Assembly: GCA_937911525.1 (NCBI GenBank)
Contig: CALDQK010000071.1
Location: 1 to 34,635, forward strand
Direction of reading: 5' to 3'
DNA: 34,635 bases
DNA from: an uncultured bacterium
GTDB taxonomy: Bacteria > Planctomycetota > J058
Below the pieces are notes generated by a model. It was not told where the DNA came from. It made no database searches and saw nothing but the letters and a program-made list of their open reading frames with translations. Shown in pieces: positions 1 through 33,441 of the stretch (position 1 is its first letter; each line of letters begins with the position of its first letter). Position numbers and translations under genes: made by a program.

Positions 1-370
1 GGTGACCACCAAGCTGCGCGTGATCAAGCCGCGCTACGTGGAGGTCTCGGCCAACGTCGCGGTCGTGCTCAAGCAGGGCGGCCCCGGCACCGACCGGATC
101 AAGGCGCGCCTCGAGGACGCGATCCGCAAGGCGCTGCACCCGCTCTTCGGCGGCCCCGACGGGAAGGGCTGGCCCTTCGGCCGGGCCGTGCACAAGTCGG
201 ACCTCTACCGGGTCGTCGAGGGCATGGAGGGCGTCGACTACGTCGAGGACCTCGACCTCTACGACGAGGACCTCAAGCGGACGGTGGTCCAGGTGCCCCT
301 CCGTGACGACGAGCTGGTCCACGTGGTCAGCGTCTCGGTCAAGGAGATCACCAAGGAGACGCTCACTTGA
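1..370 (+). CDS. Baseplate assembly protein J-like, C-terminal part (5' truncated by window)
   Basis: The reading frame is open from the window edge, so the GTG at base 2 is probably internal and only the last ~122 residues are visible. These match the C-terminal end of the 'putative baseplate assembly protein' family (TIGR02243-like, J/gp6 wedge) of phage-tail-like and extracellular contractile injection systems: a PRYVEVSANV strand, then a helix, then HPLFGGPDGKGWPFGRAV, then SDLYRVVEG and GVDYVEDL. In related particles this protein builds the wedge of the baseplate around the hub. Its stop overlaps the TTG start of the next gene (TTGA), which indicates one operon with translational coupling. 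The family call is by recognition of the motif order. The upstream half, needed to confirm the full domain set, is not in the window. Confidence 0.82.
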   Translation, partial: VTTKLRVIKPRYVEVSANVAVVLKQGGPGTDRIKARLEDAIRKALHPLFGGPDGKGWPFGRAVHKSDLYRVVEGMEGVDYVEDLDLYDEDLKRTVVQVPLRDDELVHVVSVSVKEITKETLT

Positions 371-1371
371 GCGAGCAAGGCGGAGACAACGGGGACGGGC
401 TCGAGCTCGACGCGCTCCGCCGCCAGAGCGCGCTCGAGACGCTCAAGAAGCAGCTCGCCGCCCGCGAGGTGCCGACGCCGCAGCTGGAGGGATACCCGCT
501 GCAGAAGGCGCGCAAGATCCTCTCGCTGGTGGGCGTGTCCCCCGAGCGGATCCGCCTCCGCCTGACCGAGCACCCGGGCGAGCGCGGGACGGTGATCCGC
601 CAGCGCCCCGCTCCGGGCCGCAAGGTCGACCTGACCGACCCCAACCAGCGCATCGAGCTGCAGGTGGCCGACGCCTCGCTGATGCACATGCTCCCCCAGA
701 TCTATCAGCGCAGCGACCTGACCGGCCGCAACTTCGTGCGCGAGTTGATGTGGGTCATGCAGCACGTCCAGTTCCAGACGGACGAGAAGCTGGACAACCT
801 CGAGCGCTACTTCGATCCGCACGAGTGCCCGCGCGAGTTCCTCGACTACCTGGCGAGCTGGGTCGCGCTGACCATGGACGCCGGCTGGCCCGAGGCCAAG
901 AAGCGCAGCCTGATCAAGAAGGCGGTCGAGCTCTATCACCTGCGCGGCACGCCGCGCGGCCTGCGGATCTACCTGCGGATCTTCACTGGTGTCGATCCGC
1001 TGATCATCGAGAACACCTGGCCCTTCCAGGGCTTCGTCGTCGGCGAGAGCTGCACGGTCGGCGTGGACAGCGTGATCACGCACCGGGTCAACCCGGCCCA
1101 CGCTTTCGTGGTCAAGATCCCGCTGCCGATCGAAGAAGTAGACAACCAAACCATCCTGCGGATCCACCGGATCATCGAGCAGGAGAAGCCCGTCCACACC
1201 GACTACTACCTGATCTTCGCCGAGCGCGAGGAGGAGGAAGTCGACACCGCCCTGACGGTCGGCGTCAGCTCGACGGTCGGCGTGGACACATGGCTCTCGG
1301 GGGACGACGCCGAAGGCTACTTCGACCCCCTGGCCGGCGATGGCGAGATGGAAGTCTCGTCGGAGTACTAA
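367..1371 (+). CDS. PASTA domain-phage tail protein I fusion (contractile injection system baseplate)
   Basis: 334 residues from a TTG that overlaps the previous stop by four bases. Residues ~37-101 look like one PASTA domain (GYPLQKARKIL at the start, VIRQRPAPGRKVDL in the middle, final strand IELQVA). Residues ~107-265 match phage tail protein I of the TIGR02242 type: LPQIYQR, then LDNLERYFDP, then FLDYLASWVAL, then ELYHLRGTPRGL. The C-terminus carries three TVGV repeats near residues 238-305 and an acidic tail. Tail protein I completes the baseplate wedge next to the J-like protein, which is exactly its neighbour here. PASTA domains are known from peptidoglycan-sensing kinases and PBPs, so the fusion could place a wall-binding module on the baseplate, but that is inference. 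No signal peptide is visible. Confidence 0.85.
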   Translation: MSEQGGDNGDGLELDALRRQSALETLKKQLAAREVPTPQLEGYPLQKARKILSLVGVSPERIRLRLTEHPGERGTVIRQRPAPGRKVDLTDPNQRIELQVADASLMHMLPQIYQRSDLTGRNFVRELMWVMQHVQFQTDEKLDNLERYFDPHECPREFLDYLASWVALTMDAGWPEAKKRSLIKKAVELYHLRGTPRGLRIYLRIFTGVDPLIIENTWPFQGFVVGESCTVGVDSVITHRVNPAHAFVVKIPLPIEEVDNQTILRIHRIIEQEKPVHTDYYLIFAEREEEEVDTALTVGVSSTVGVDTWLSGDDAEGYFDPLAGDGEMEVSSEY

Positions 1372-1382
1372 CGAGGAACTAA

Positions 1383-2999
1383 ATGGCTGACGACGCACGC
1401 CAGGGCTACCTGCGCCTGAACCACTTCCACGGGCTGCGCCTCGAGAGCGAGGACTTCCAGACGGGTGAGCGCTACCACGTCGAGAAGCGCAAGCTCCACA
1501 ACGCCGCCCTGCACGGGCACGGGATCGTGGCCCACTGGCGCGGCGAGCTGAAGGTGATCGGCCGCCGCCGCGGCGACATGTCCATCGACGTCAACGCGGG
1601 CTACGCGATCGACGGCGAAGGCAACGACGTGATCCTGTGGGACCCCAAGATCGTCACGATCGACCCGGGCAAGCAGCTGCCGCAGCTGCCCGGCACGGCC
1701 TACATCGTGCTGAAGTACGTCGAGGACCCGGTCGAGTTCGTCGTCAACAAGGCGAACCCCAAGTTCAAGGGCCACCGGCGCATCTTCGAGACCTGCCGCG
1801 TCGACGTCGACAGCAGCCCGCCCGACCCGCGCGACGGGGTCGAGCTGGCGCGGATCCTCATCACGGCCGACACGATCGAGATCACCGACGCGCGCGACCC
1901 CAACAACCCGGGCCCGGGCGAGATCGACCTCCGCTACCGCGGACACGCCGGCCAGGCCGGCACCGCGGTCGACGTGGACCTGCGCAACAAGATGCAGGAC
2001 CTCTTCGTCGAGCTGCGCAAGATCCTCGGCAACTTCGCGCGCAACGGGATCCACTCGGCCCGTGACATGCGCGCCGCGGCGATGGTCCTCCAGATGCTGC
2101 TCGAGACCAACAACCTCGACTCGCCCCAGGTCGTGAGCGGGATCCGACTCCTGCTCGAGCTCGCCGACGAGATGCGCGTCGACGTCGACCTCAACTTCCC
2201 CGAGCTGAACGGCGTGCGGGAGTGGGAGCAGTGGAAGGAGGTCATCGACGCGCTGACCAGCATGGCGCGCGAGGCCAAGCCCCTGCGCGGCGACCTCGAG
2301 AACCTGCTCAACCGCCTCATCACCGCGGCGGACTCGCTCCGCCTGGCCGCCGACGTCAAGCCGGCTCCCAAGCCCGAGCCCAAGCCCGTCGAGGAGGCCA
2401 AGCCCGAGGCCGCCGAGGAGGAGGAAGAGGAGGAAGAGGAGGAGGAGACTCCAGCGGAGCCGGTCAAGGACCCGGCCGCCAAGGAGCTCACCTGGGACCA
2501 GCTCAAGGAGTCCTCGGTCCTGCCGGACAAGATCTTCATGGACGGCAAGAACTACCACCTCGTCGACCAGATCGCCGTCGGCGACCGCAAGAGCGAGGCG
2601 AGCCACGACTTCCAGATCGTGGGCGCCAAGCAGGACTGGAAGGCCAACCAGACCTTCTCCTACCCCGACGGGGTCAAGGCCACCGCGCGCGGTCGCTCGC
2701 ACGTGGGCGGCACCTCGCAGTGGAACATTCAGAACCTCGCGCCCGGCCGGGACGTGGTGATCGCCAAGCGGATCGACTTCGTCCGCGGCGACATCGTGAC
2801 CCGGATCGAGATCGACGGCTCCTCGGTCGGAGACTGGACGATCGACGGGAGCGACCGCAAGCACCGCTGGCGCAACTGGCTGTTCCGGGTCCCCGGTGAC
2901 TCGATCGGCTCTAACTCCGTCGAGTGCAAGCAGGTGGCGGTCGAGGCCGACCGCGACGTCAACATGTTCGGGCTCTGGTTCTACCAGGCGCAGGAGTAG
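1383..2999 (+). CDS. Tail-associated protein with N-terminal HFHG domain, acidic hinge and beta-rich C-domain
   Basis: 538 residues; ATG preceded by GAGG eight bases upstream and eleven bases after the previous stop, so it is in the same operon. The N-terminus (~8-60) has the pattern LNHFHGLRL, ESEDFQ, Y..EKRKLHN, LHGHGIV that I associate with uncharacterised proteins next to tail protein I in eCIS and phage-like clusters. Residues ~60-330 are mixed alpha/beta and then helical. A Pro-Lys-Glu stretch with a run of ten or more glutamates (~330-365) acts as a flexible hinge. The C-terminal ~170 residues look beta-rich (VTRIEIDGSSVGDW, then WRNWLFRVPGD), as in jelly-roll accessory or lectin-like domains. 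Position and modularity suggest a baseplate accessory or receptor-binding fibre. The function is not established. Confidence 0.75.
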   Translation: MADDARQGYLRLNHFHGLRLESEDFQTGERYHVEKRKLHNAALHGHGIVAHWRGELKVIGRRRGDMSIDVNAGYAIDGEGNDVILWDPKIVTIDPGKQLPQLPGTAYIVLKYVEDPVEFVVNKANPKFKGHRRIFETCRVDVDSSPPDPRDGVELARILITADTIEITDARDPNNPGPGEIDLRYRGHAGQAGTAVDVDLRNKMQDLFVELRKILGNFARNGIHSARDMRAAAMVLQMLLETNNLDSPQVVSGIRLLLELADEMRVDVDLNFPELNGVREWEQWKEVIDALTSMAREAKPLRGDLENLLNRLITAADSLRLAADVKPAPKPEPKPVEEAKPEAAEEEEEEEEEEETPAEPVKDPAAKELTWDQLKESSVLPDKIFMDGKNYHLVDQIAVGDRKSEASHDFQIVGAKQDWKANQTFSYPDGVKATARGRSHVGGTSQWNIQNLAPGRDVVIAKRIDFVRGDIVTRIEIDGSSVGDWTIDGSDRKHRWRNWLFRVPGDSIGSNSVECKQVAVEADRDVNMFGLWFYQAQE

Positions 3000-3013
3000 C
3001 GCAAGCCCTTGCG
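3000..3013 (+). terminator. Short hairpin just after the tail gene stop
   Basis: CGCAA-GCCC-TTGCG forms a perfect five-base stem directly behind the TAG of the tail-associated gene. There is no U-tract, so it is at best a weak terminator or 3' end stabiliser. The remaining ~180 bases up to the FHA gene show no clear promoter by eye. Confidence 0.25.
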
Positions 3014-3194
3014 TCGTTGAGGCCTACGGGCCATAGTGGGCCGCGGCATGCGCCCTAAGTGCTTTGGGTTCACGCCGTAGGGATCTGGAACTCGAGTCCT
3101 CGACTTAGGTAGGGGCTCAGGACGAAACTGAGCTCACGCGAGCGAGGCAGTTGGGGAGCCTCCCGAGGACCCCACTGGAGACTGGGAAGTCAGC

Positions 3195-3791
3195 ATGGGC
3201 GATACGAAGCTGTGCAAGAACGGGCACATCATGGAGGCCAACTGGGACACCTGTCCCTACTGCCCCCGGCCCGCTGGCGCTCCTATGGCGCCGCCTCCCA
3301 TGGCCGCGCCGCCTGCGGCGGGTCGACCCCAGATCCCCCCGACCCGCATGGCCGTCCCCGTCCCGGCGCCGGCGCCGGCCCCAGCGCCAGCTCCGATGCC
3401 CATGCCGACCCCCGTGCCGGCAGCGCGTCCCTCGGCGAACGCCAAGAAGACCCGCCTGGTCTTCGAGGACAAGAAGCTGCCCGTCGCCGGCTGGCTGGTC
3501 GCTCTGACCGGCAAGTACAAGGGCGAAGACTTCAAGATCCGCGAGGGCAAGACCTCGATCGGGTCCGATCCGAGCAACGACGTGGTCCTGACCGAGGACT
3601 ACATCTCGACCCGCCACGCCACGATCAAGTTCGTGGAGAAGGACGGCGAGCGGATCTTCATCCTCACCGACCTCGACTCGAGCAACGGCACCTTCCTCAA
3701 CGACAGCGAGGAGCCGATCGCCCGCGAGGAGCTGGTCGACAACGACACGGTGACCTTCGGCTCGACCCGCATGAAGTTCAAGTGCCTCTAG
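3195..3791 (+). CDS. Zinc-ribbon FHA domain protein, copy 1
   Basis: 198 residues. The start has a short metal-binding-like knuckle: C7, H11, C20 and C23 in the pattern C-KNGH...DTCPYC. A Pro/Ala/Met linker follows (~28-92). The C-terminal half (~97-198) is a forkhead-associated domain, which normally binds phosphothreonine peptides: IGSDPSND, STRH (~138-141), then SSNGTFLND (~162-170). The usual FHA 'GR' is GS here, so the arginine that commonly contacts phosphate is absent, although the serine and histidine of the second motif remain. It lies 195 bases after the tail genes and upstream of a second FHA gene, a PP2C phosphatase and a Ser/Thr kinase on the same strand, so it is a plausible reader of that kinase's phosphorylation. 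A GGGAAG about seven bases upstream may serve as ribosome site. Confidence 0.9.
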   Translation: MGDTKLCKNGHIMEANWDTCPYCPRPAGAPMAPPPMAAPPAAGRPQIPPTRMAVPVPAPAPAPAPAPMPMPTPVPAARPSANAKKTRLVFEDKKLPVAGWLVALTGKYKGEDFKIREGKTSIGSDPSNDVVLTEDYISTRHATIKFVEKDGERIFILTDLDSSNGTFLNDSEEPIAREELVDNDTVTFGSTRMKFKCL

Positions 3792-4306
3792 CGGCCGCGG
3801 ACTGGCCCTCCTAGCCGCACATTCCAAGAGAGCAGATCAAGATGAACCGAGAGATCCCCCCCACCCGCATGAACGTCCCCGTCCCGCCGCCGACCCCGGC
3901 GCCGGCGCCGATGCCCATGCCGACGCCCGTTCCGGCGCCGCGTCCCTCCGCGAACGCCAAGAAGACCCGCATGATCTTCGAGGACGCCAAGCTGCCGGTC
4001 GCCGGCTGGCTGGTCGCCCTCACCGGCAAGTACAAGGGCGAGGACTTCAAGATCCGCGAGGGCAAGACCTCGATCGGGTCCGATCCGAGCAACGACGTGG
4101 TCCTGACCGAGGACTACATCTCGACCCGCCACGCCACGATCAAGTTCGTGGAGAAGGACGGCGAGCGGATCTTCATCCTCACCGACCTCGACTCGAGCAA
4201 CGGCACCTTCCTCAACGACAGCGAGGAGCCGATCGCCCGCGAGGAGCTGGTCGACAACGACACGGTCACCTTTGGGCAGACCCGCATGAAGTTCAAGTGC
4301 CTCTAG
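3331..4306 (+). repeat. Tandem duplication of the FHA module, ~515-521 bp period
   Basis: Bases 3331-3791 and 3852-4306 are two copies of the linker plus FHA segment. By direct reading, 3528-3751 is identical to 4043-4266 (224 bases, offset 515). At the 5' edge the offset is 521, showing a six-base length difference in the Pro/Ala linker. Synonymous changes occur just outside the identical block. The pattern fits a duplication homogenised by gene conversion, or a recent duplication. Confidence 0.9.
3842..4306 (+). CDS. FHA domain protein, copy 2 (short paralogue without zinc ribbon)
   Basis: 154 residues. It is a tandem duplicate of the preceding gene, beginning inside the linker: the same IPPTRM start, a Pro/Ala linker and a nearly identical FHA domain (IGSDPSND ~76-84, STRH ~94-97, NGT ~120-122). 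Residue changes in the FHA domain are very few, the clearest being near the end, where FGSTRMKF becomes FGQTRMKF. The zinc-ribbon N-terminus is missing, so this copy keeps only the reader domain and the same GS in place of GR. The ATG has only a weak purine-rich stretch upstream (AAGAGAGCAGA), and 50 bases separate it from copy 1, so coupled translation is likely. It may compete with, or dimerise with, copy 1; this is inference. Confidence 0.88.
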   Translation: MNREIPPTRMNVPVPPPTPAPAPMPMPTPVPAPRPSANAKKTRMIFEDAKLPVAGWLVALTGKYKGEDFKIREGKTSIGSDPSNDVVLTEDYISTRHATIKFVEKDGERIFILTDLDSSNGTFLNDSEEPIAREELVDNDTVTFGQTRMKFKCL

Positions 4307-4385
4307 CCCGAGGCTCCAGGTGACCCCAAGGGAGCCTGACTCCCGAGGCGCTCTGCCTAGCCCCCGACTCGCTTCTACTCTCCTT

Positions 4386-4435
4386 GCGCCTCTCGAGGCG
4401 CATCGCCCCTTCGTTGGGCCCTCCGCTGAGGGCCC
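4386..4435 (+). other. Two consecutive perfect hairpins in the FHA2-PP2C gap
   Basis: The 150-base gap holds GCGCCTC-TC-GAGGCGC (4386-4401) and GGGCCCTC-CGCT-GAGGGCCC (4416-4435). Neither is followed by a U-tract. They lie 20-70 bases before the PP2C start, so they could attenuate or process the transcript between the FHA pair and the phosphatase-kinase pair. The function is not shown. Confidence 0.5.
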
Positions 4436-4456
4436 CCAGATGGACCGACGACCTGC

Positions 4457-5749
4457 GTGAAGATTCGCGACGACGTCGAGATCGGACAGCACTCCCACGT
4501 GGGCATGGCCCGCACGGAGAACCAGGACTTCTTCGGCTACTGGGAGCCGGACGAAGATCGCCTGTTCGACCTCAAGGGTCGCCTGGCCGTCGTCTGCGAC
4601 GGAATGGGCGGCCACTCGGGTGGCGAGATCGCCAGCCGCCTCGCCGTAAAGGCGATCATCGACAACTACGAGCAGGCTGAGAGCGAGAACATCGTCGAGG
4701 CCCTGCGGGCCTCGATCGAGCTCGCCAACCGCCAGGTCTACAACGAGGGCCAGCGGCTCAAAGAGCTGGACGGCATGGGGACCACGGTCACGGCCCTCGT
4801 GCACCGCCGCGACATGGTCTATTTCGGCCAGGTCGGAGACAGCCGCGCCTACCTGATTCGAGGTGGCGCGATGAAGCAAATGACCAAGGACCACTCGCTG
4901 GTTCAGCAGCTCGTCGACGAGGGGCTGCTCGACAAGAGCGAGATGGAGAGCCACCCCGACAAGAACGTGATCCTGCGCTCGCTGGGGGTCAAGCCCGAGG
5001 TCGAGGTCGACGTCAGTCACATCCCGATCGCCAACGGCGACCTGTTCCTGATCTGCTCGGACGGGCTCTCGGGCCTCGTGACCGACGACGAAATGCTGGC
5101 CCTCGTCAACGCGGGCGTGTCTGGCCAAAAGGCCCTGCGCCAGATCTGCGAGGACCTGGTCAACCAGGCCAACGCCGCCGGCGGCCACGACAACATCACG
5201 GTCCAGCTGCTGCGGATCAACGCGACCGACAGCGCGACGACCGACACCACCCCCGAAGAGACCGTCACCGCGGCCTTCACGCAGGACCAGATCGACGAGT
5301 CGATCCGCAAGGCCCGTGAAGAAGCCGCCGCCCGCGACGGAGGCGCGCCGGCAGCGGCCGCCGCCCCGGCGCCAGCCGCGAGCGAGGGTCCGGTGATCCC
5401 GGCGACCCAGCCCGCGATGCCGGTTCCTCAGCTCGAGGAGCCGGCCAGCGCCTCGCGCTCTGCGGGAGGCCTGGGCAAGCTCCTGGTCGGGCTCTTGCTC
5501 GGCGCCGTGATCGGCGCCGGCGGGACCTTCGCGGTCCTCTTCGCCCGCGAGCGGGGCGCGGCCGAGGCCGCCCGGGATCAGGCCAAGGAGACCCTCGACG
5601 CGAGCAAGGGCAACGCGGTCCTGATCGACAAAGCCAAGGACGCCTTCGAGCAAGGAAAGGCGGCCTACCGAGAGAACGACTTCGAGGAGGCGCGAGCTCG
5701 GTTCATCGCCGCCGAGCGCCTCTGTGAACTGGCGGGAGAGGCCCAATGA
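4457..5749 (+). CDS. Membrane-anchored PP2C-family Ser/Thr protein phosphatase
   Basis: 430 residues from a GTG start; later starts would cut the first motif. Residues ~1-250 are a bacterial PP2C (PPM) phosphatase that removes phosphate from Ser/Thr using two metal ions: RTENQD (D24), VVCDGMGGHSGGE (D48), VGDSRAYL (~125), LICSDGLSGLV (~200) and GGHDNITV (~240). A Pro/Ala linker leads to one membrane helix (~338-363, LLVGLLLGAVIGAGG). A ~65-residue helical tail with TPR-like character lies on the far side of the membrane, so the catalytic domain should be cytoplasmic. The stop overlaps the kinase start (ATGA), so the opposing enzymes are made together. This pairing is the standard way of setting reversible phosphorylation of FHA-bound targets; the targets here are probably among the neighbouring FHA or baseplate proteins (inference). 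Confidence 0.93.
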   Translation: MKIRDDVEIGQHSHVGMARTENQDFFGYWEPDEDRLFDLKGRLAVVCDGMGGHSGGEIASRLAVKAIIDNYEQAESENIVEALRASIELANRQVYNEGQRLKELDGMGTTVTALVHRRDMVYFGQVGDSRAYLIRGGAMKQMTKDHSLVQQLVDEGLLDKSEMESHPDKNVILRSLGVKPEVEVDVSHIPIANGDLFLICSDGLSGLVTDDEMLALVNAGVSGQKALRQICEDLVNQANAAGGHDNITVQLLRINATDSATTDTTPEETVTAAFTQDQIDESIRKAREEAAARDGGAPAAAAAPAPAASEGPVIPATQPAMPVPQLEEPASASRSAGGLGKLLVGLLLGAVIGAGGTFAVLFARERGAAEAARDQAKETLDASKGNAVLIDKAKDAFEQGKAAYRENDFEEARARFIAAERLCELAGEAQ

Positions 5750-7407
5750 TCGGGGCGCAAGTCGGTGACTACAAGATCGTCGCCGAGCTCGGCGAGGGCG
5801 GCATGGGCATGGTCTACAAGGGCCAGCACGCCGCGCTGGGGCAGATCGTAGCGGTCAAGTCGCTCCACCCGACCCTGATGAGCAACCAGGCCGCGAAGGA
5901 CCGCTTCGAGCGGGAAGCGCAGGCCCTGGCGCGCCTCAACCACCCCAACATCATTGGCCTGTTGAACTTCATCAACAACGCCGACGGCTGCTTCATCGTG
6001 ATGGAGTTCGCCGAGGGTGAGGACCTCGAGGACAAGCTGCAGCGCATGGGCCTGATCCCCCCGCCGCAGTGCATCCCCTGGTTCATCGAGGCCTGCCGCG
6101 GGCTCGAGTACGCCCACCAGCAGGGGATCATTCACCGCGACATCAAGCCCAGCAACATCATCGTCCACCCCTCGGGCACGACCAAGCTGCTCGACTTCGG
6201 CACGGCCAAGCTCGTCGACGCCCAGCGCCTGACCCAGCAGGGCATGACCCTGGGCACGGTGATCTACATGTCGAAGGAGCAGCTCCTCGGCAAGCCGCTG
6301 GACGCCCGCTCCGACGTCTACAGCCTGGGCGTGACCCTCTACGAGTGCGTCACCGGCCAGCTGCCCTTCTACGACGAAGAGGAGCGCAAGCTCGTCGTCA
6401 AGATCGCCAAGGAAGAGCCGATCCCCCCGCGGCAACACTACCCCGGGATCTCGCCTCAGCTCGAGGCGATCATCCTCAAGGCGATGGCCAAGGACCCGGC
6501 CCAGCGCTACCAGAGCAGCACCGAGTTCGAGCACGCCCTGGCGGGCCTCCCCGAGGCCGGTGGCTCGCTGGCCGCCAGCCAGGCCAGCCCCCTCGCCGCC
6601 ACTCCCCCGCCGACCGCGAGCGCGGGCCCCGCGACGCCCTCTCCCACGCCGACGCCTGCCACCCCGCAGCCCGCCTTCGGCGGCGGCTCCCCGGCCCCCG
6701 CGGCGGGCGGAGGAGGCGCCCCGTCGTTCACCGAGATCCTCTTCTCGCCCCTCTTCCTGGGCGGCCTGGTGTGCTGCGTGATCGGCCTCGGCGCGGGCGT
6801 GCCCCTCGTCGCGATCGGCTTCATGAACGAGCAGTCCACGCTCAAGATCGTGGGCCTGATCTTGCTGCCCGTGTTCCTGCTCCTCGGCGTGTTGCTCTGC
6901 GTGCTCGGGATGGTCAAGGCCAAGGCAGCGGGCGGGAAGGGCGGCGGAGGCGGCGCGGTCGCCGCGCCGCCGGCGATGCCGGCCTCGGTCACCTCGACCG
7001 TCCCCCAGAACAACCCCTTCGGCGCTCAGCCGGCGGGCGGCACCCTCAACGTCGACTCGCCAGGCGCCGCCCAGCACTACGCTCCGCCGCCCGCGACGGC
7101 CCAGCCCGCCGCGGCGGGCCAGGCGCTGGTCCAGGTGATCGACGGCAATGACAAGGGCCTCCAGGCCACGGTGACCGCGACCACCCCGGTGACCCTCGGT
7201 CGCGCGCCGGCCTGCTCGATCACGCTCAACGACCCGGGCGTCTCGGGTCAGCACGCCTCGATCGGCTTCGAGGCCTCGACCCTGGTCGTGACCGACACCG
7301 GCAGCCGCAACGGTGTGTTCGTGAACAACCAGAAGATCGCGCGCCAGCAGCTCTCCTCGGGCGACCTGATCGTGGTCGGCTCGACACGCCTGCTGGTCAG
7401 CCTCTAG
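5746..7407 (+). CDS. Ser/Thr protein kinase with two membrane helices and C-terminal FHA domain
   Basis: 553 residues. Hanks-type kinase domain (~8-265): glycine loop GEGGMG (16-21), lysine K38 in VAVK, HRDIKPSN (130-137), DFG (150-152). The usual APE reads SKE (YMSKEQ), keeping the glutamate but not the Ala-Pro. A Pro/Ala linker (~268-330) precedes two predicted membrane helices (~336-358 and ~366-390) that would form a hairpin. After another linker comes an FHA domain (~460-553) with intact LGRAPAC, GQHA and SRNGVF motifs, unlike the two small FHA proteins upstream. Kinase and FHA domain should face the cytoplasm on the same side. The ATGA overlap with the PP2C gene couples expression. Together with the phosphatase and FHA genes it forms a complete phospho-switch directly behind injection-system genes. 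Confidence 0.94.
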   Translation: MIGAQVGDYKIVAELGEGGMGMVYKGQHAALGQIVAVKSLHPTLMSNQAAKDRFEREAQALARLNHPNIIGLLNFINNADGCFIVMEFAEGEDLEDKLQRMGLIPPPQCIPWFIEACRGLEYAHQQGIIHRDIKPSNIIVHPSGTTKLLDFGTAKLVDAQRLTQQGMTLGTVIYMSKEQLLGKPLDARSDVYSLGVTLYECVTGQLPFYDEEERKLVVKIAKEEPIPPRQHYPGISPQLEAIILKAMAKDPAQRYQSSTEFEHALAGLPEAGGSLAASQASPLAATPPPTASAGPATPSPTPTPATPQPAFGGGSPAPAAGGGGAPSFTEILFSPLFLGGLVCCVIGLGAGVPLVAIGFMNEQSTLKIVGLILLPVFLLLGVLLCVLGMVKAKAAGGKGGGGGAVAAPPAMPASVTSTVPQNNPFGAQPAGGTLNVDSPGAAQHYAPPPATAQPAAAGQALVQVIDGNDKGLQATVTATTPVTLGRAPACSITLNDPGVSGQHASIGFEASTLVVTDTGSRNGVFVNNQKIARQQLSSGDLIVVGSTRLLVSL

Positions 7408-7442
7408 GGCACCTCCTAGGTCGTCGCGAGCGCCCCCTCCTC

Positions 7443-7478
7443 GACAGCGCTGTCCCTTCGTCGAGCCAGCGCTGGCTC
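7443..7478. promoter_or_regulatory. Twin palindromes with shared CAGCGCTG core
   Basis: GACAGCGCTGTC (7443-7454) and GAGCCAGCGCTGGCTC (7463-7478) are both perfect palindromes around the same CAGCGCTG core. Their centres are 22 bases apart, about two helical turns. They lie between the kinase stop and a small gene, 70-105 bases upstream of its ATG. Such spacing suits two dimers of a DNA-binding protein on one DNA face. They could instead be RNA hairpins ending the kinase transcript. Confidence 0.4.
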
Positions 7479-7548
7479 ACGGCGGACGCGTGGGCTCCCC
7501 TCTCCCCGGCATGCGGCTTGCGCACTCCAAGGCGAAAGGAGGCCCCAT

Positions 7549-7797
7549 ATGACGATCAACGACCCCCGCGGCCGCCGAAAGGCCAAGCTGAGCGTCAGGG
7601 ACGGCCTGCTGCTCTACGTGCGCCACATCGGCACCAGCCCCTTCACGGAGCGCACCGAGGAGCTGCGCAAGCTCGACGCCTGCGCTGCCCCCTCCAGGGA
7701 AGCGCTGATCCGCTGGGGCGACGAAGGCGGCCAGCTCTACGTCTCGACTGCCGCTCACGCCGACCTGCCCGATCGCTCCCCCGCTCCGCCGCGATAA
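7549..7797 (+). CDS. Small hypothetical protein, 82 aa
   Basis: I do not recognise the family. The gene is supported by a near-ideal ribosome site, AAAGGAGG at 7535-7542, six bases before the ATG, and by back-to-back TAA TGA stops. The protein starts basic (DPRGRRKAKL), has a hydrophobic strand (LLLYVRH), then a helical acidic stretch (ERTEELRKLDA), then LIRWGDEGGQLYVS, and ends Pro-rich. There is no signal peptide or membrane helix. It sits between the kinase and a tRNA gene and starts ~70 bases after the twin palindromes, so it may be separately controlled. Confidence 0.65.
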   Translation: MTINDPRGRRKAKLSVRDGLLLYVRHIGTSPFTERTEELRKLDACAAPSREALIRWGDEGGQLYVSTAAHADLPDRSPAPPR

Positions 7798-7803
7798 TGA
7801 CGC

Positions 7804-7831
7804 TTGCACCCGCGAGGCCCTGGTCTATGAT
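7804..7831 (+). promoter_or_regulatory. Sigma-70-type promoter for tRNA-Ala
   Basis: TTGCAC (7804-7809) and TATGAT (7826-7831) are separated by 16 bases and lie 13 bases before the tRNA 5' end. This is close to the housekeeping consensus TTGACA/TATAAT and is the clearest promoter in the window. The -35 box begins seven bases after the small gene's stop. Confidence 0.75.
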
Positions 7832-7844
7832 CTGGGCCTTCTGC

Positions 7845-7917
7845 GGGGCTGTAGCTCAGCTGGGAGAGCGATACGTTCGCAACGTATAGGTCAGGGGTTC
7901 GAGTCCCCTCAGCTCCA
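7845..7917 (+). tRNA. tRNA-Ala, anticodon CGC
   Basis: A complete 73-base cloverleaf. Acceptor GGGGCTG pairs with CAGCTCC (one G-U). D-arm stem is GCTC/GAGC. Anticodon stem ATACG/CGTAT holds loop TTCGCAA with anticodon CGC at 34-36, reading GCG (alanine). T-arm is AGGGG-TTCGAGT-CCCCT and the discriminator base is A. The 3' CCA is not encoded and must be added. It has its own promoter and terminator, so it is a stand-alone transcription unit. No integrase gene or att-like repeat is seen nearby. Confidence 0.97.
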
Positions 7918-7924
7918 ACGCGAT

Positions 7925-7962
7925 AAGCGCCGAAGTCCACTGGGCTTTGGCGCTTTTGCTTT
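7925..7962 (+). terminator. Intrinsic terminator of tRNA-Ala
   Basis: AAGCGCC at 7925-7931 pairs with GGCGCTT at 7949-7955. The stem continues inwards through a G-U pair and AAGTCC/GGGCTT (7933-7938/7942-7947), giving a fourteen-pair helix with a three-base loop. It is followed by TTGCTTT. This is the only classical rho-independent terminator found in the window. Confidence 0.9.
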
Positions 7963-15178: not shown

Positions 15179-17488
15179 TCAGGGTGGGAGGACCCACACG
15201 CTGAGGGTCCCGTCCTGCTGCCCGAGCCCCAGCAGGTCGCCCGCCGAATCCACCGCGAGACTGCAGGGAGACGCTGGCAGTTGGGGGGTGACGTGGGTCG
15301 GCAGGCCCGCGGGGGCGGCCAGGTCGAAGCGCTTGATCGTGCGGTCGGCGACCGCCACGTCCTGCCCCGGCAGCGCGAGCAGGGCCTGGGTCCCGGGGAG
15401 GCGCGCGAGCGCCCCGACGGACCCTCCGTCGGCGAAGACGCGCTCAGCCCACTGGAGCTCGGGCGTCCTACCGTGCAGGCGGCGTTGGACCTCGAGCCCC
15501 TCGCCCTGGAGCAGGAGCACCTGGCCCCGATACGTGCCGAGCAGGAACGTGTCGGGCCCGAAGCTGAGCAGGGCGCTGGTCGGCGGGAAGCGGGCGCGAG
15601 CGACACGCTCCCCGTGCTCGAGCTTCCAGACGGCGAGGACGGAGCCTTCACGCAGCTTGGAGGCCACCAGCAAGGTCCGCTCGTCGAGAAAGGTCAAGCG
15701 GTGAGGCGCTTCGCCCGGACCCGCAGCCAGGCGACGGAGCACGCGCCCGGAGTCGAGCGCGAGCACCACCACCCTCGTGTCCACGATCACGGCCACCCGC
15801 CTCCCTTGAGGCTCCAGGGCGAGCGCGCCCACGTCCCCCAGGCGCGCGACCCAGCGCGCGCCTCGCCCGAGCCGATCCCCTCGCCCCAGCTTGCCCGCGG
15901 CTCCGCGCCCCGACCCACCCTCCCCCCACAGCGCCTCCCCTGGCCAACGCTCCAGCCCCGCCTTGCCTGCCAGGAGCCACGCACCTCCCGGCAGCGGCAA
16001 CGCGCGCTCCAGACCGCGGACCCGCAGCCGAGCGCTCAGTGTGCCTCCGGGCAGCGACCAGCGGCGCAGCCGGCCGTCGCCGCAGCTGACCACCGCCTGG
16101 TCCCGGTCGAAGGTCAGCCGGACTCGACCTCCCTGCGGATGGTGCACGAACTGGAGCAGCGGGGCGCTGGGCGAGGAGGCGAAGAGCCGCTGGGCGCGCG
16201 CCGCGGCGGGGTGACGGGGGTGTCGACGCAGCCAGCGCCGCGCGGCGAGCAGCTCCAGCTGCCCGCCGAGCTCCCGCCCATCGCGCTGCCAGGGACGAGC
16301 CGCGGCAGCGCTCGGCGTGGCGGCGAGCAGCGGAACGCGAGGTGCCCGCGGGGTCGGCGAACTCGAGGCGCTGGTGTCGTTCGGCCAGCGCGAGCGCAAC
16401 GCGAGCCCGACGGTCAGCGCGCTAGCGAGGATCAGGGCCAGGGAGAGGATCAGGGCTCCGCGAGCGCAGGGGCGACGCGCGCCCAGCGCCGCCGGCGGAA
16501 GGCCAGCCAGGACTGCGTCCAGGTCGTTCGCAAAGTCGACGGCGTCGGGGTAGCGCGCTCCCGGGTCTCGCTGGAGCGCTGTGGCGAGGACGGCGTCGAG
16601 CGAGCGCGGCAGCCCATGGCGTTGACCCAGCGAGGGGAGCTCCCAGCGCGCCTGCGCGGCGAATCGCTCCATGATCGAGACGCCGGGAAAGAGCTCCGTC
16701 CCCGTCAGGACCTCGTAGAGCACGACCCCCAGCCCCCACACGTCGGTCGGTGGCCCCTGGCGGGCCAGGTCGCCTTCGACTTGCTCGGGCGCCATGTAGC
16801 CCACGGTCCCGAGCACGGCCCCGGTCCGGGTCAAGCGCTCTTGCTCGCCTTGCTGAAGCGTGAGCCCGAAGTCGCTCACGCGAACCCGCCCCTGACGATC
16901 GACCAGCAGGTTGTCCGGCTTGACGTCTCGATGGAGGACCCCCCTGCGGTGGGCGTAGCCCAGCCCCCGCGCCGCGTCGCGCACCAGCTCCAGCCGCGAC
17001 CGCCAGTCGAGTCCCTCGGCCGCCTCGACGATCGAGCGCGCCCCCTCGACCAGCTCCAGCACCAGATAGGCGCCCTGCGCGGCCTTGCCAGCGGCGTGAA
17101 TCCCCACCACGTTGGGGTGGCGCAGCTCGGCCAGCGCGCAGGCCTCGCGCTGGAAGCGAGCCAGCTGACGCGCGCCAGCCAGGCTCCCCGAGCGGAGCAC
17201 CTTGAGCGCGACCCTGCGGTCCAGGACCGTATCGCGCGCGAGGTAGACCGCGCCCATGCCGCCCTCGGCGATGAGCCGCTCCAGCACGTAGGGCCCGAAG
17301 CGCCGTCCGCCCGGCCCTGGCTGGACGCTCAACGCCTGCAGGCCCGCCAGGCAATCCTCGACCACCTCACGCGCCACGCCGTGACGAGCCGCCAGCGCCC
17401 TCACCTCGGCAGACCCGAGGGCTGCGCTCCCCAGGTCCTCGAACAGGGCCTCGAGGACCTCGTCGGGCGGCAGGTCGCTCGACCTCAC
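15179..17488 (-). CDS. Transmembrane Ser/Thr protein kinase with WD40-like extracytoplasmic domain
   Basis: 769 residues from a GTG that overlaps the sigma factor stop (GTGA). An N-terminal ~60-residue helical segment precedes the kinase domain (~66-330): AEGGMG (74-79), K96, HRDVKPDN (186-193), DFG (206-208), APE (233-235), TDVWGLG. One membrane helix at ~344-365 (LILSLALILASALTVGLAL) is followed by a low-complexity linker. The outer ~330 residues are beta-rich with repeated blade-like strands (VSCGDGRLRRWSLPGG, ALEPQGRRVAVIVD, SAGDLLGLGQQDG..SVWVL), consistent with a WD40/PQQ-type propeller that could sense a ligand or partner. Coupling to an ECF sigma factor is a known planctomycete arrangement in which the kinase is thought to control the sigma factor by phosphorylation. 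Catalytic residues are intact. Confidence 0.92.
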   Translation of the reverse strand: MRSSDLPPDEVLEALFEDLGSAALGSAEVRALAARHGVAREVVEDCLAGLQALSVQPGPGGRRFGPYVLERLIAEGGMGAVYLARDTVLDRRVALKVLRSGSLAGARQLARFQREACALAELRHPNVVGIHAAGKAAQGAYLVLELVEGARSIVEAAEGLDWRSRLELVRDAARGLGYAHRRGVLHRDVKPDNLLVDRQGRVRVSDFGLTLQQGEQERLTRTGAVLGTVGYMAPEQVEGDLARQGPPTDVWGLGVVLYEVLTGTELFPGVSIMERFAAQARWELPSLGQRHGLPRSLDAVLATALQRDPGARYPDAVDFANDLDAVLAGLPPAALGARRPCARGALILSLALILASALTVGLALRSRWPNDTSASSSPTPRAPRVPLLAATPSAAAARPWQRDGRELGGQLELLAARRWLRRHPRHPAAARAQRLFASSPSAPLLQFVHHPQGGRVRLTFDRDQAVVSCGDGRLRRWSLPGGTLSARLRVRGLERALPLPGGAWLLAGKAGLERWPGEALWGEGGSGRGAAGKLGRGDRLGRGARWVARLGDVGALALEPQGRRVAVIVDTRVVVLALDSGRVLRRLAAGPGEAPHRLTFLDERTLLVASKLREGSVLAVWKLEHGERVARARFPPTSALLSFGPDTFLLGTYRGQVLLLQGEGLEVQRRLHGRTPELQWAERVFADGGSVGALARLPGTQALLALPGQDVAVADRTIKRFDLAAPAGLPTHVTPQLPASPCSLAVDSAGDLLGLGQQDGTLSVWVLPP

Positions 17489-18554: not shown

Positions 18555-21731
<3,177 letters not shown>

Positions 21732-21823
21732 CCTGCTCAGAAGGTAGCGCAAGGTCCCTGGCCGACGCGAGCCCTCAGATTGGGGACCTGTCCTGCCATG
21801 GCCTCCGCCCAGCTCTTGGCTCG

Positions 21824-29536: not shown

Positions 29537-31465
29537 TTAGAGCCGCGGGAAGACCTGCCGCAAGAACACGTCCCGCAGCGCGGGGTCGAGAGCGTCGACG
29601 TCTCGCGCGTGATCCTGGACGGGGTCGACCCGATAGCCCGCCGTGCGCGGACGGACGTCCGCCGTCCAGGCGGTGTGGAGGGTGAAGGCCAGGCGCAGGT
29701 CGGGATGTCCGAGCCGGCAGAGCGGCCCCTGGGCCAGGTCGTCCTGGGCGAACACCCACAGCTCGTCGCCGCTGGAGCGCGGGTCGCTCGCGTCGTCGGA
29801 GATCACCGCGCACACCACGTAGCCGCGGCCCGTCGGCGCCAGCTCGGGCGAGCAGGGCACCCACCCGCTCGGGAACACGAAGGCGTCGCCGAGCTGGGCG
29901 CTGCGAGCGTCGTAGCGGAGCAGCGTCCCGGGGCGCTGCTGAGGGAGCTGGGCCAGGGGCCGCACCCGGTGGGGGTAGCCGGAGTAGGCCTGAGCCACGC
30001 GCTCGGGCAGGAGCGCGGGGTCGAAGCCCGTCCAGGTCTGGAACACGTGCTCGTGGCGCGCCGCGACCCCGTAGCCGCCGCTGTAGAGGGTGTGGCCCCA
30101 GGTGAGCCGGTCGTCTCCCACCAGCTGGCTCGAGACCAGGCTCGGGCGCTTGGCGTCGATCACGTGTCGGCCGAGGTGGCCGAGGTCGGTCGGCGCGCTG
30201 ATGAAGCCGAGGTGGTCGCGCGAGACCGGAGCGCCGTTGTCGAAGCGCTTGTCGCTGGGGAGCAGCCACTCCGAGCCGTCGACGCCGGTGGTGTGGATCG
30301 CGTGCAGGGTGATCCGCTCGCCCGCGTCGTCGTAGTCGAGCAGGAAGTGCGCCACCTCCCGCGGGAGGTCCAGGCTGCGGGCGACGACCTGGCCGCCGCT
30401 GGAGGTCGCCGCGAGGTCGCTGCGCCGGACCAGGTAGAGGCGCCCGTAGGGCTCCTGGGCTTCGAGGTAGGAGGGGTCGAGCATCTTCTGCAGCTCGAGC
30501 CGGAAGGCGGCGTCGGCGAGGACCACGTAGTGCTCGGTGACCCCCATTTGGTGGACCGACTGCAGGATCCGGATCGGTGTTCCCTGCGGGTCGACCAGGG
30601 TCCAGCGCTCCAGCGCTCCGTGCCCGTCCCAGCGGATCAGGTCGGTGAAGTCCGGTCCCAGGAGCGGGAGGCCGAACACGCGCACGTTTTGAGGCCCGCC
30701 GTAGTTGGCGCCGAAGGTCTCGCCCGTGAAGCGATCGTGCGCCATGTGAGCGCTCGTCTGCAGCAAGGGGAACACGTCGTCGTTCAGCGCGGTCCCAGCG
30801 ATCGAGGGCAGGTCGAAGCCGGGCCGCCACTCGCTCCGCCAGCCCACGGCGGTCACGGTCTCGAGCGTGACTGGATCGAGCTCGAAGGGGCGTCCAGCGT
30901 CGCTGGTCACCAGCAGGCGATCGTCGCCCAGCGGGATCAAGGCGGTGTTGGGGTGGTTGCGCACCCCGAGCGCGGTCGACATCCGCGCTGGCCCGTCCTG
31001 AATGTTGCTGAACGCGGCCGATTGGCCCGCCAGGGCCTGGTCGGCGTAGTAGCAGGGCGTGGTGACCAGGCGGGAGCGCAGGCGCCCGCTCGCCAGGTCG
31101 AGGCGACGCACGACCCCCTCGCCGTTGAAGGTGAACACGCCGGCGCCGCGCGGCTGAGAGCCGACGACGAAGTAGTGGCCGCCGAGGTCGGCCGGCAGCG
31201 CGCCGCTGAGGACGTTCAGCTGCAGGTCGAGCGGCGCGGCGCTCCCGTGAAGCAAGGAGCGGGGAGTCCCCGTCCCCGGCGCGGGCAAGCTCGCCAGAGA
31301 CCCTGCCGGCGCGGCAGGAGCGGGGGCGCTCGTGACGGGAGCGCTCGTCGCCGCGGACGCTCCGAGCGGCGAGCGATTGCGCTGCTGCGAGCAGCCCGCC
31401 AAGGCGCCCAACGCGCCCGCGCCGCAGGTCTCGAGGAAGGCGCGGCGGCTGAGCGTGGTCGGCAT
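29537..31465 (-). CDS. Carotenoid oxygenase (RPE65/CCD family) with Tat-lipoprotein signal
   Basis: 642 residues from the ATG at 31465 with GGGAG seven bases upstream. The N-terminus has both a twin-arginine motif and a lipobox (SRRAFLETCGAGALGALAGC, lipidated Cys25), so the folded enzyme should be exported and lipid-anchored. A Pro/Ala linker precedes the seven-bladed propeller of the carotenoid cleavage family. Four histidine-bearing segments are in the right order for the Fe(II) site: SAHMAHDRFTGETFG, SVHQMGVTEHYVV, EVAHFLLDYDD and AFTLHTAW. The family splits polyene double bonds (carotenoids, apocarotenoids, stilbenes, lignin-like compounds) with oxygen. A third segment with LDYDD in place of the usual NAYE may alter iron coordination. 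It lies near a desaturase-like flavoenzyme and a FAS1 protein, all exported. Confidence 0.9.
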   Translation of the reverse strand: MPTTLSRRAFLETCGAGALGALAGCSQQRNRSPLGASAATSAPVTSAPAPAAPAGSLASLPAPGTGTPRSLLHGSAAPLDLQLNVLSGALPADLGGHYFVVGSQPRGAGVFTFNGEGVVRRLDLASGRLRSRLVTTPCYYADQALAGQSAAFSNIQDGPARMSTALGVRNHPNTALIPLGDDRLLVTSDAGRPFELDPVTLETVTAVGWRSEWRPGFDLPSIAGTALNDDVFPLLQTSAHMAHDRFTGETFGANYGGPQNVRVFGLPLLGPDFTDLIRWDGHGALERWTLVDPQGTPIRILQSVHQMGVTEHYVVLADAAFRLELQKMLDPSYLEAQEPYGRLYLVRRSDLAATSSGGQVVARSLDLPREVAHFLLDYDDAGERITLHAIHTTGVDGSEWLLPSDKRFDNGAPVSRDHLGFISAPTDLGHLGRHVIDAKRPSLVSSQLVGDDRLTWGHTLYSGGYGVAARHEHVFQTWTGFDPALLPERVAQAYSGYPHRVRPLAQLPQQRPGTLLRYDARSAQLGDAFVFPSGWVPCSPELAPTGRGYVVCAVISDDASDPRSSGDELWVFAQDDLAQGPLCRLGHPDLRLAFTLHTAWTADVRPRTAGYRVDPVQDHARDVDALDPALRDVFLRQVFPRL

Positions 31466-31484
31466 GGGTGCTCCCTGGGGGAGG

Positions 31485-31523
31485 GCCGCGGCGACCGGGA
31501 GCAAGGCTCCTGGTCGCCGCGGC
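31485..31523 (-). promoter_or_regulatory. Eighteen-pair hairpin in the 5' leader of the carotenoid oxygenase
   Basis: Bases 31485-31502 pair with 31506-31523: GCCGCGGCGACC/GGTCGCCGCGGC, one G-U, then GGAGC/GCTCC, closing a three-base loop. It ends 20 bases before the ATG and just ahead of the ribosome site. It could end transcription from upstream or control ribosome access. No U-tract follows. Confidence 0.55.
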
Positions 31524-31698
31524 TGCGGGATGATTCTGGAAGCGTTGGAGAGCGCGCGACCCAGTGGGAAAGAAGAGGGAGTGCCTCGCGCCCGCAAGGT
31601 CCCGTGCACAGGGCGGGCCAGCTCTCAAGCCCAACGAAGTCGTCGCTGGGGGCAAGGGTGTCGCGCCGAATCCCGCGGCTTGTCGCGCGCGAGCTGCC

Positions 31699-32469: not shown

Positions 32470-33441
32470 TTAGCGACGCGTCAAGGCGCGGGAGCGCGGG
32501 CGCAGGCGACGAGGGCGCGGGGCCGTCGCGCGCTGGCGCGCCCGCGACCAGGCTCGCAGCAGCTCGCCAGCGGAGCTGTAGCGCTCACGCGGATCCTTGG
32601 CCAGCGCGCGCGCGAGCACGTCCGCCAGGGGCTCGGGCAAGCCGGGGACGGGCGCGGGCTCGGCGTGCTGCAAGAGCGCGATCAAGCGGTCCAGGCGATC
32701 CGCGTCGAAGGGAGGCGCTCCGCTGAGGAGCCGGAAGGCCGAGACCCCGAGCGAGAACACGTCCGAGGTCGGCGTCGCGTCTTGGCCCTGCAGTCGCTCG
32801 GGGGCAGCGTAGAGGGGAGTCCCCACCACCTGCCCGGGGCGGGTCAGCTCACGCGGGTCGACCAGGGGACGGGCCAGGCCGAAGTCGATCAGCCGCAGGC
32901 CAGCGCGTCCCCAGATCACGTTCTGGAGCTTGATGTCCCGGTGGACGATCCCTTGCTCGTGCACGTAGGCCACCGCCTCGAACAGCTCCTCGAGCAAGCG
33001 CGCGCCCTCGCGCCAGCGGAGGGGGCCGCTTCGCTCGAGCAGGTCCTTGAGCGAGCGCCCCGGGACCTGCTCGAGGACCAGCGCGGGGATCCCGCGCCAG
33101 CGACCGGACCCGTAGATGCGAACGACCCCGGGATGGCGCAGACCGGCCAGAATGCGCGCCTCCTCCTGCAGCCGCCGCGCGCCGGGTTGGCTGGGGGTGG
33201 CCAGGAACTTGAGCGCGACCGGGCGGCGGAGGCGCAGGTCGTAGGCCGCCCGCACGCTGGCCTGAGCCCCGCGGCCCAGCTTGGGTCCCAGGCGGTAGCG
33301 CCTGCTGGACAGCCGCGTCGGGAAGCCCCTCAGCGCCTCATAGGGGTCGTCGAAGGCGTCGAGCGGCATGGACCAGGTCAGCTCCGCGAGCGGAGGGCGC
33401 GGCCCCGGGATCAGGCAGGTCTCGCTGTGGCTGGCGCTCAT
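32470..33441 (-). CDS. Soluble Ser/Thr protein kinase
   Basis: 323 residues; the ATG lies two bases after the stop of the upstream peptidase gene. A ~48-residue N-terminal arm precedes a compact kinase domain (~50-300): glycine loop GRGAQA (56-61), K78 in VALK, HRDIKLQN (167-174), DFG (186-188), APE (213-215), TSDVFSLG. All catalytic residues are present. The C-terminus is a strongly basic tail (PRPRRLRPRSRALTRR) with no membrane helix, unlike the other three kinases here, so it is cytoplasmic, perhaps held to membrane or nucleic acid by charge. Coupling to a wall-binding peptidase suggests control of, or response to, envelope events, but no direct link is visible. Confidence 0.92.
   Translation of the reverse strand: MSASHSETCLIPGPRPPLAELTWSMPLDAFDDPYEALRGFPTRLSSRRYRLGPKLGRGAQASVRAAYDLRLRRPVALKFLATPSQPGARRLQEEARILAGLRHPGVVRIYGSGRWRGIPALVLEQVPGRSLKDLLERSGPLRWREGARLLEELFEAVAYVHEQGIVHRDIKLQNVIWGRAGLRLIDFGLARPLVDPRELTRPGQVVGTPLYAAPERLQGQDATPTSDVFSLGVSAFRLLSGAPPFDADRLDRLIALLQHAEPAPVPGLPEPLADVLARALAKDPRERYSSAGELLRAWSRARQRATAPRPRRLRPRSRALTRR

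Follow-up and report, generated by a model that had tools for sequence, protein, structure and literature searches.

FHA-domain proteins accompany the baseplate genes of an eCIS-type contractile injection system (CIS) in two bacterial phyla, and the association between machine and FHA proteins is well supported. This association is real and wider than the initial annotation, made from one stretch of DNA, could see, and its core consists of the FHA adaptors. Taken as a whole, the best explanation, which we favour by a cautious judgement, is that the locus is an operon for the baseplate of a contractile injection system related to eCIS, present in one Planctomycetota class and in many Myxococcota.

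Architecture of the locus and of its contractile machine

The window, the whole 34,635-nucleotide stretch analysed here, corresponds to the entire contig C71, one of the 1342 contigs that make up a Planctomycetota draft genome of 10.2 Mb (G000). The contig begins within gene J, and the genes between positions 2 and 7407 all run in the same direction (Table 1), at the positions given in the initial annotation, whose co-directional order of a J end, tail protein I, a tail-associated protein, two FHA proteins, a PP2C phosphatase and a kinase-FHA protein is confirmed in full. The J fragment matches the intact J of the relative G004 in phmmer at E=3e-56, while the PASTA domain on tail protein I is a feature absent from that annotation. 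A TTGA overlap joins J to tail protein I, and the ATGA coupling described earlier for the enzymes is found between the PP2C and kinase genes, recurring in six relatives (G001, G002, G003, G004, G006 and G009). The two stand-alone FHA genes form a tandem duplication, their FHA regions being 95.8% identical at the DNA level over 359 bp, and the same pair occurs in the congener G001. A promoter and terminator scan of positions 2900-7950 returned no signal above chance.

Table 1. Genes of the baseplate and phospho block in the window, and neighbours recurring near CIS loci of both phyla
Feature	Position	Strand	Basis
Baseplate protein J, C-terminal end (TIGR02243)	2..370	+	NCBIfam 1e-11; start beyond contig edge
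Tail protein I (TIGR02242/Tail_P2_I) with N-terminal PASTA	367..1371	+	Profile matches
CIS13-like tail-associated protein	1383..2999	+	CIS13_fam 8e-6, weak, N-terminus only
Zinc ribbon + FHA protein (F1 family); Ser replaces phosphothreonine Arg	3195..3791	+	Profile match, alignment
Second FHA protein, tandem copy without zinc ribbon	3842..4306	+	Profile match
Membrane PP2C phosphatase (Stp1/IreP type), intact catalytic motifs, one TM helix	4457..5749	+	
Ser/Thr kinase, two TM helices, C-terminal FHA with canonical Arg	5746..7407	+	
AAA ATPase gene and DUF1257-like neighbour	L084 1177-3180; L041 18435-20360; L189 1-908; L190 1-718		DUF1257-like label judged from sequence, not by profile match

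Directly downstream of the phospho block lies a tRNA-Ala (CGC) gene at 7845-7917. The minus strand of the contig carries three more Ser/Thr kinase genes (15179-17488, 18555-21752 and 32470-33441) and an RPE65/carotenoid-oxygenase-like gene (29537-31609). The genome encodes at least 150 FHA domains and is unusually rich in both kinases and FHA domains; a single FHA gene next to a tail gene is therefore unremarkable, and the significance of the arrangement rests on conservation across genomes rather than on adjacency in one.

Because C71 starts inside J, the upstream genes of the machine were sought on other contigs. Contig C541 (L003) carries two sheath (Phage_sheath_1) genes, three tube-family (TIGR02241/CIS-tube-like) ORFs, a Pvc16/DUF4255-like cap gene and a coiled-coil gene. 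At the end of this sheath/tube operon, a very long Gly/Ser/Met-rich repetitive ORF (L003 2-4498, minus strand) runs off the contig, and G004 and G006 each have a long ORF at the equivalent position. The sheath/tube set of G004 and G006 lies on one contig and the gp25-J-I-CIS13-FHA-PP2C-kinase set on another. G010, from another family of the same class, has sheath, tube, baseplate and phospho block together on one 191-kb contig, with an eCIS_core-domain protein adjoining the locus; several of its sheath ORFs are frame-broken in the assembly. The initial annotation had named missing sheath and tube genes as a finding that would tell against its reading. Both are present on C541, and in G010 they adjoin the baseplate block, so this objection falls away. 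The machine thus combines the components by which an eCIS is recognised, namely sheath and inner-tube genes, the Pvc16/DUF4255 cap, J (TIGR02243), I (TIGR02242) and gp25. It may be cell-based, as argued from its predicted membrane-anchored partners. An AAA ATPase gene with a DUF1257-like neighbour also recurs near CIS loci of both phyla (Table 1).

Two features of the tail proteins bear on targeting. PASTA is also present on tail protein I of myxobacterial orthologues, and the C-terminal beta-sandwich of the CIS13-like protein resembles CBM35/CBM6 in an AlphaFold and Foldseek comparison confined to this domain, the N-terminal part of the model being unreliable. Together, the PASTA domain and the predicted CBM35/CBM6-like fold suggest contact with glycan or peptidoglycan.

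Linkage of FHA genes to the machine in two phyla

The initial annotation had proposed conservation of the phospho block beside TIGR02242/02243 genes as a test of its idea, and the block directly follows the CIS13-like gene in six genomes of three planctomycete families (G000, G002, G004, G006, G009 and G010). G003 provides a seventh case if a split contig is counted, the contig break falling within the FHA gene. The exception is G001, a member of the same genus as the window genome, which has an intact block on a separate contig with an unrelated gene before it; the linkage between CIS and phospho block was broken in this genome. At the end of its contig C99 (L019 1-1037), tandem copies of about GACCCCGTTCTCATGTGA directly follow the CIS13-like gene, at the place where the FHA block is missing, and a stretch matching the tRNA-Ala region of the window adjoins the relocated block (L066 6034-6155). 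No orthologous FHA was found in G011, where the contig terminates inside the CIS13-like gene, and G005 and G007, which have no CIS of this kind, also have no orthologous FHA. The available flanks of other planctomycete CIS (G022, G060, G070, G075, G113, G156 and G327) and of CIS in other phyla (L047-L065), some of them short, contain no FHA, kinase or PP2C gene.

A PASTA-type tail protein I is found in 71 of 379 sampled Myxococcota genomes. Forty myxobacterial loci were read, 35 of them extending 5 kb or more past tail protein I, and in 20 of these 35 a same-strand FHA gene directly follows the CIS13-like gene, 19 having two or more FHA genes. The first of these, F1, often combines a zinc ribbon with its FHA domain. 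A membrane anchor is predicted for the second, F2, which has a hydrophobic stretch at its N-terminus in many loci, a zinc ribbon ahead of the FHA domain in several and a vWA domain in L041. A kinase gene lies about 8-9 kb downstream in six of the 35 loci, beyond the F1-F2 pair, and PP2C occurs in none (0/35). Outside the planctomycete class a nearby kinase is confined to one myxobacterial subgroup, and PP2C is found in the planctomycete class only. Past the FHA pair, L142 (12078-18282) encodes a TPR/PEGA protein, a 1171-aa thrombospondin-repeat putative lipoprotein and a kinase, and the genes of L146 show an equal size pattern.

In the J tree, the FHA-linked loci are spread over the two phyla and over several clades of myxobacteria, and since parsimony requires nine state changes, the linkage has been gained or lost repeatedly. 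The F1 gene is encoded elsewhere in 14 of the 15 tested CIS-positive genomes that have no FHA at the locus, and the relocated F1 gene usually still adjoins a second FHA gene. Family identity is defined by an HMM of the planctomycete CIS-FHAs, which scores 73-136 bits on myxobacterial F1 and at most 40 bits on 40 further FHAs that the window genome encodes; the alignment contains a common GWLVxLxGxxKGxDF motif and a common C-terminal end across both phyla. Among the Myxococcota, F1 occurs in 17 of 18 genomes with the CIS and in 0 of 20 without it (nominal Fisher p = 6e-10, phylogeny ignored), the best match in the CIS-negative genomes reaching 85 bits and true members scoring at least 187 bits. 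An AlphaFold model of the FHA protein from 8 rows had a mean pLDDT of 46 and was left unused.

Phosphothreonine sites and a proposed docking model

An FHA domain contacts phosphothreonine through the Arg of its GR motif. Of 40 further FHAs encoded by the window genome, 37 have this Arg; it is absent from all 12 planctomycete stand-alone FHAs of the F1 family (one a G010 paralogue, the other 11 located at CIS loci or deriving from them), each of which has Ser instead. All 21 myxobacterial F1 proteins likewise have Thr, Ala or Lys at this position, Arg is found in 4 of 19 myxobacterial F2 proteins, and the C-terminal FHA of the kinase has it in 7 of 7; nominal p-values for these counts overstate the evidence, the rows within each family being related. 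F1 retains the Ser and Asn of the phosphothreonine site. This pattern indicates that F1 is probably a non-canonical FHA and that the kinase keeps a phosphothreonine reader. With the phosphothreonine-contacting Arg missing, the stand-alone FHAs may dock without phosphorylation.

The kinase Lys/HRD/DFG motifs and the Asp metal-site motifs of PP2C are invariant in all planctomycete orthologues. Several planctomycete kinases also carry a zinc ribbon ahead of the FHA domain, generating the TM-zinc-ribbon-FHA order of several myxobacterial F2 proteins, which suggests that the kinase may occupy the place of F2 in Planctomycetota. The "full Ser/Thr phospho-switch" of the initial annotation accordingly holds in one part, the conserved linkage of the CIS to FHA, PP2C and kinase genes, and needs revision in another: judged from sequence, the conserved core is the FHA pair, one soluble and one membrane-anchored, to which kinase and PP2C are lineage additions.

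In the best model, which we consider somewhat favoured, FHA adaptors would attach the baseplate to the inner membrane, with kinase/phosphatase gating in Planctomycetota. Synteny, family identity and co-occurrence are its observed basis, from which we infer binding by F1 and recruitment to the membrane. Specifically, F1, with its zinc ribbon and FHA domain, would act as a dedicated adaptor, normally partnered with a membrane-anchored FHA protein; its non-canonical FHA surface would bind baseplate or tail-associated proteins, and the membrane-anchored partner would recruit the tail to the inner membrane from the cytoplasmic side. The planctomycete class has this membrane-anchored FHA module fused to a Ser/Thr kinase that is apparently active by its motifs, with a membrane PP2C co-encoded. 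The kinase would most likely autophosphorylate and also phosphorylate FHA or baseplate partners, its Arg-bearing FHA would read phosphothreonine and PP2C would reverse the phosphorylation, whereby docking or assembly would answer an envelope signal. More tentative is a reading in which the FHA pair would hold the eCIS-type machine at the inner membrane and the co-encoded kinase and phosphatase would gate docking, assembly or firing via baseplate proteins, a post-translational control of an eCIS that would be separate in evolution from that of the type VI secretion system (T6SS).

Phospho-control of the machine is a plausible proposal for the planctomycete class. Against it stands the finding that most myxobacterial loci have neither kinase nor PP2C, which makes phosphorylation dispensable for the CIS lineage; the missing Arg of F1 (0/12 planctomycete, 0/21 myxobacterial) and the unlinked block of G001 also weigh against the model. 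An appreciable, though clearly less probable, alternative is that the FHAs have a purely structural role in docking the CIS, comparable to that of the degenerate FHA-fold cytoplasmic domains in T3SS ring proteins, that phosphorylation is irrelevant to the machine and that the planctomycete kinase and PP2C are just operon passengers. Replacement of Arg by Ser, Thr or Ala in the stand-alone FHAs, their match to the model of the T3SS YscD cytoplasmic domain and the F1-F2 pair without kinase or PP2C in most Myxococcota agree with such a role. Mere passengers, however, would sit uneasily with a PP2C-kinase pair whose motifs are intact in every planctomycete locus of the lineage readable that far, with ATGA coupling kept in six relatives besides the window, with Arg in all seven kinase FHAs and with a kinase in the same place in a separate myxobacterial subgroup.

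That the block serves the T6SS of the same genome or general signalling, its adjacency to the CIS being a matter of history, is highly improbable. The window genome does have a T6SS locus (TssK on C507), as T6SS is also found in several relatives, but this locus has its own FHA with a canonical GR, and G005 has T6SS yet neither CIS nor orthologous FHA. Moreover, TssK is missing from 15 of the 18 tested Myxococcota with the CIS, and F1 is encoded by 14 of these 15; with TssK in just 3 of 38 Myxococcota genomes tested, T6SS does not explain the F1 distribution. The G005 pattern, the tracking of CIS by F1 and the rarity of TssK together lead to rejection of T6SS ownership. Least probable of all, chance neighbourhood in a genome extremely rich in FHA and kinase genes, with its 150 or more FHA domains and three further kinases in the same 34.6 kb, is rejected for the FHA genes by synteny that spans three families of planctomycetes as well as a second phylum, by F1 similarity at the level of orthologues and by co-occurrence with the CIS, and for the PP2C-kinase pair by conservation in seven genomes.

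Comparison with known contractile and secretion systems

The eCIS surveys and reviews searched contain no mention of FHA, and the surveys none of PASTA. A full-text literature search, with subscription papers and preprints outside its scope, returned no report of FHA, kinase or phosphatase with eCIS, in agreement with the earlier remark that phospho-control is no established eCIS trait. The eCIS regulators in one survey are GerE-type transcription factors with histidine kinases, and the regulation it describes is transcriptional. An FHA adaptor found throughout the lineage and accompanying the machine in two phyla would add a layer of membrane docking and signalling to eCIS and would blur the border between extracellular and cell-anchored contractile systems. 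How contractile systems other than T6SS find the membrane, and what triggers their assembly, becomes directly testable in Myxococcota.

The cytoplasmic domain of the T3SS protein SctD/YscD/MxiG/PrgH has an FHA fold with non-canonical phosphothreonine-site residues within a secretion machinery, and Pfam Yop-YscD_cpl matches F1. In contrast to T3SS, the FHA domains described here sit on individual proteins, some soluble and some in the membrane and many with zinc ribbons, that are associated with a phage-tail machine. With eCIS of the Afp/PVC type the locus has in common the sheaths, three tube-family proteins, Pvc16_N cap, LysM tube protein, gp25, J, I and CIS13-like protein; it differs in the PASTA domain on tail protein I, the zinc-ribbon FHA adaptors and, in Planctomycetota, the kinase and PP2C.

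The PpkA-PppA-Fha module of T6SS likewise comprises a Ser/Thr kinase, a PP2C and an FHA protein encoded with contractile-machine genes, its FHA being the assembly effector. PpkA, TssL and Fha of the T6SS threonine phosphorylation pathway have been described, and in Agrobacterium Fha the R30A substitution reduces and R30A/S46A abolishes Hcp secretion (PMC3953482). As in that pathway, the kinase and PP2C active sites are intact, whereas the canonical phosphothreonine residues are incomplete in F1, the stand-alone FHA having no Arg corresponding to R30, and the machine is of eCIS type (TIGR02241/02242/02243, Pvc16). The CIS locus contains no TssK/TssL/TssM complex, TssK being encoded on the separate contig C507, where the T6SS locus (L082) with its canonical-GR FHA has no PP2C or kinase matches. 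In the cytoplasmic CIS of Streptomyces coelicolor, the membrane protein CisA is needed for function and firing (PMC12237407), a likeness in description; the text of that article mentions neither FHA nor kinase. The T6SS threonine phosphorylation pathway and CisA of the Streptomyces CIS are the closest functional parallels to the system described here.
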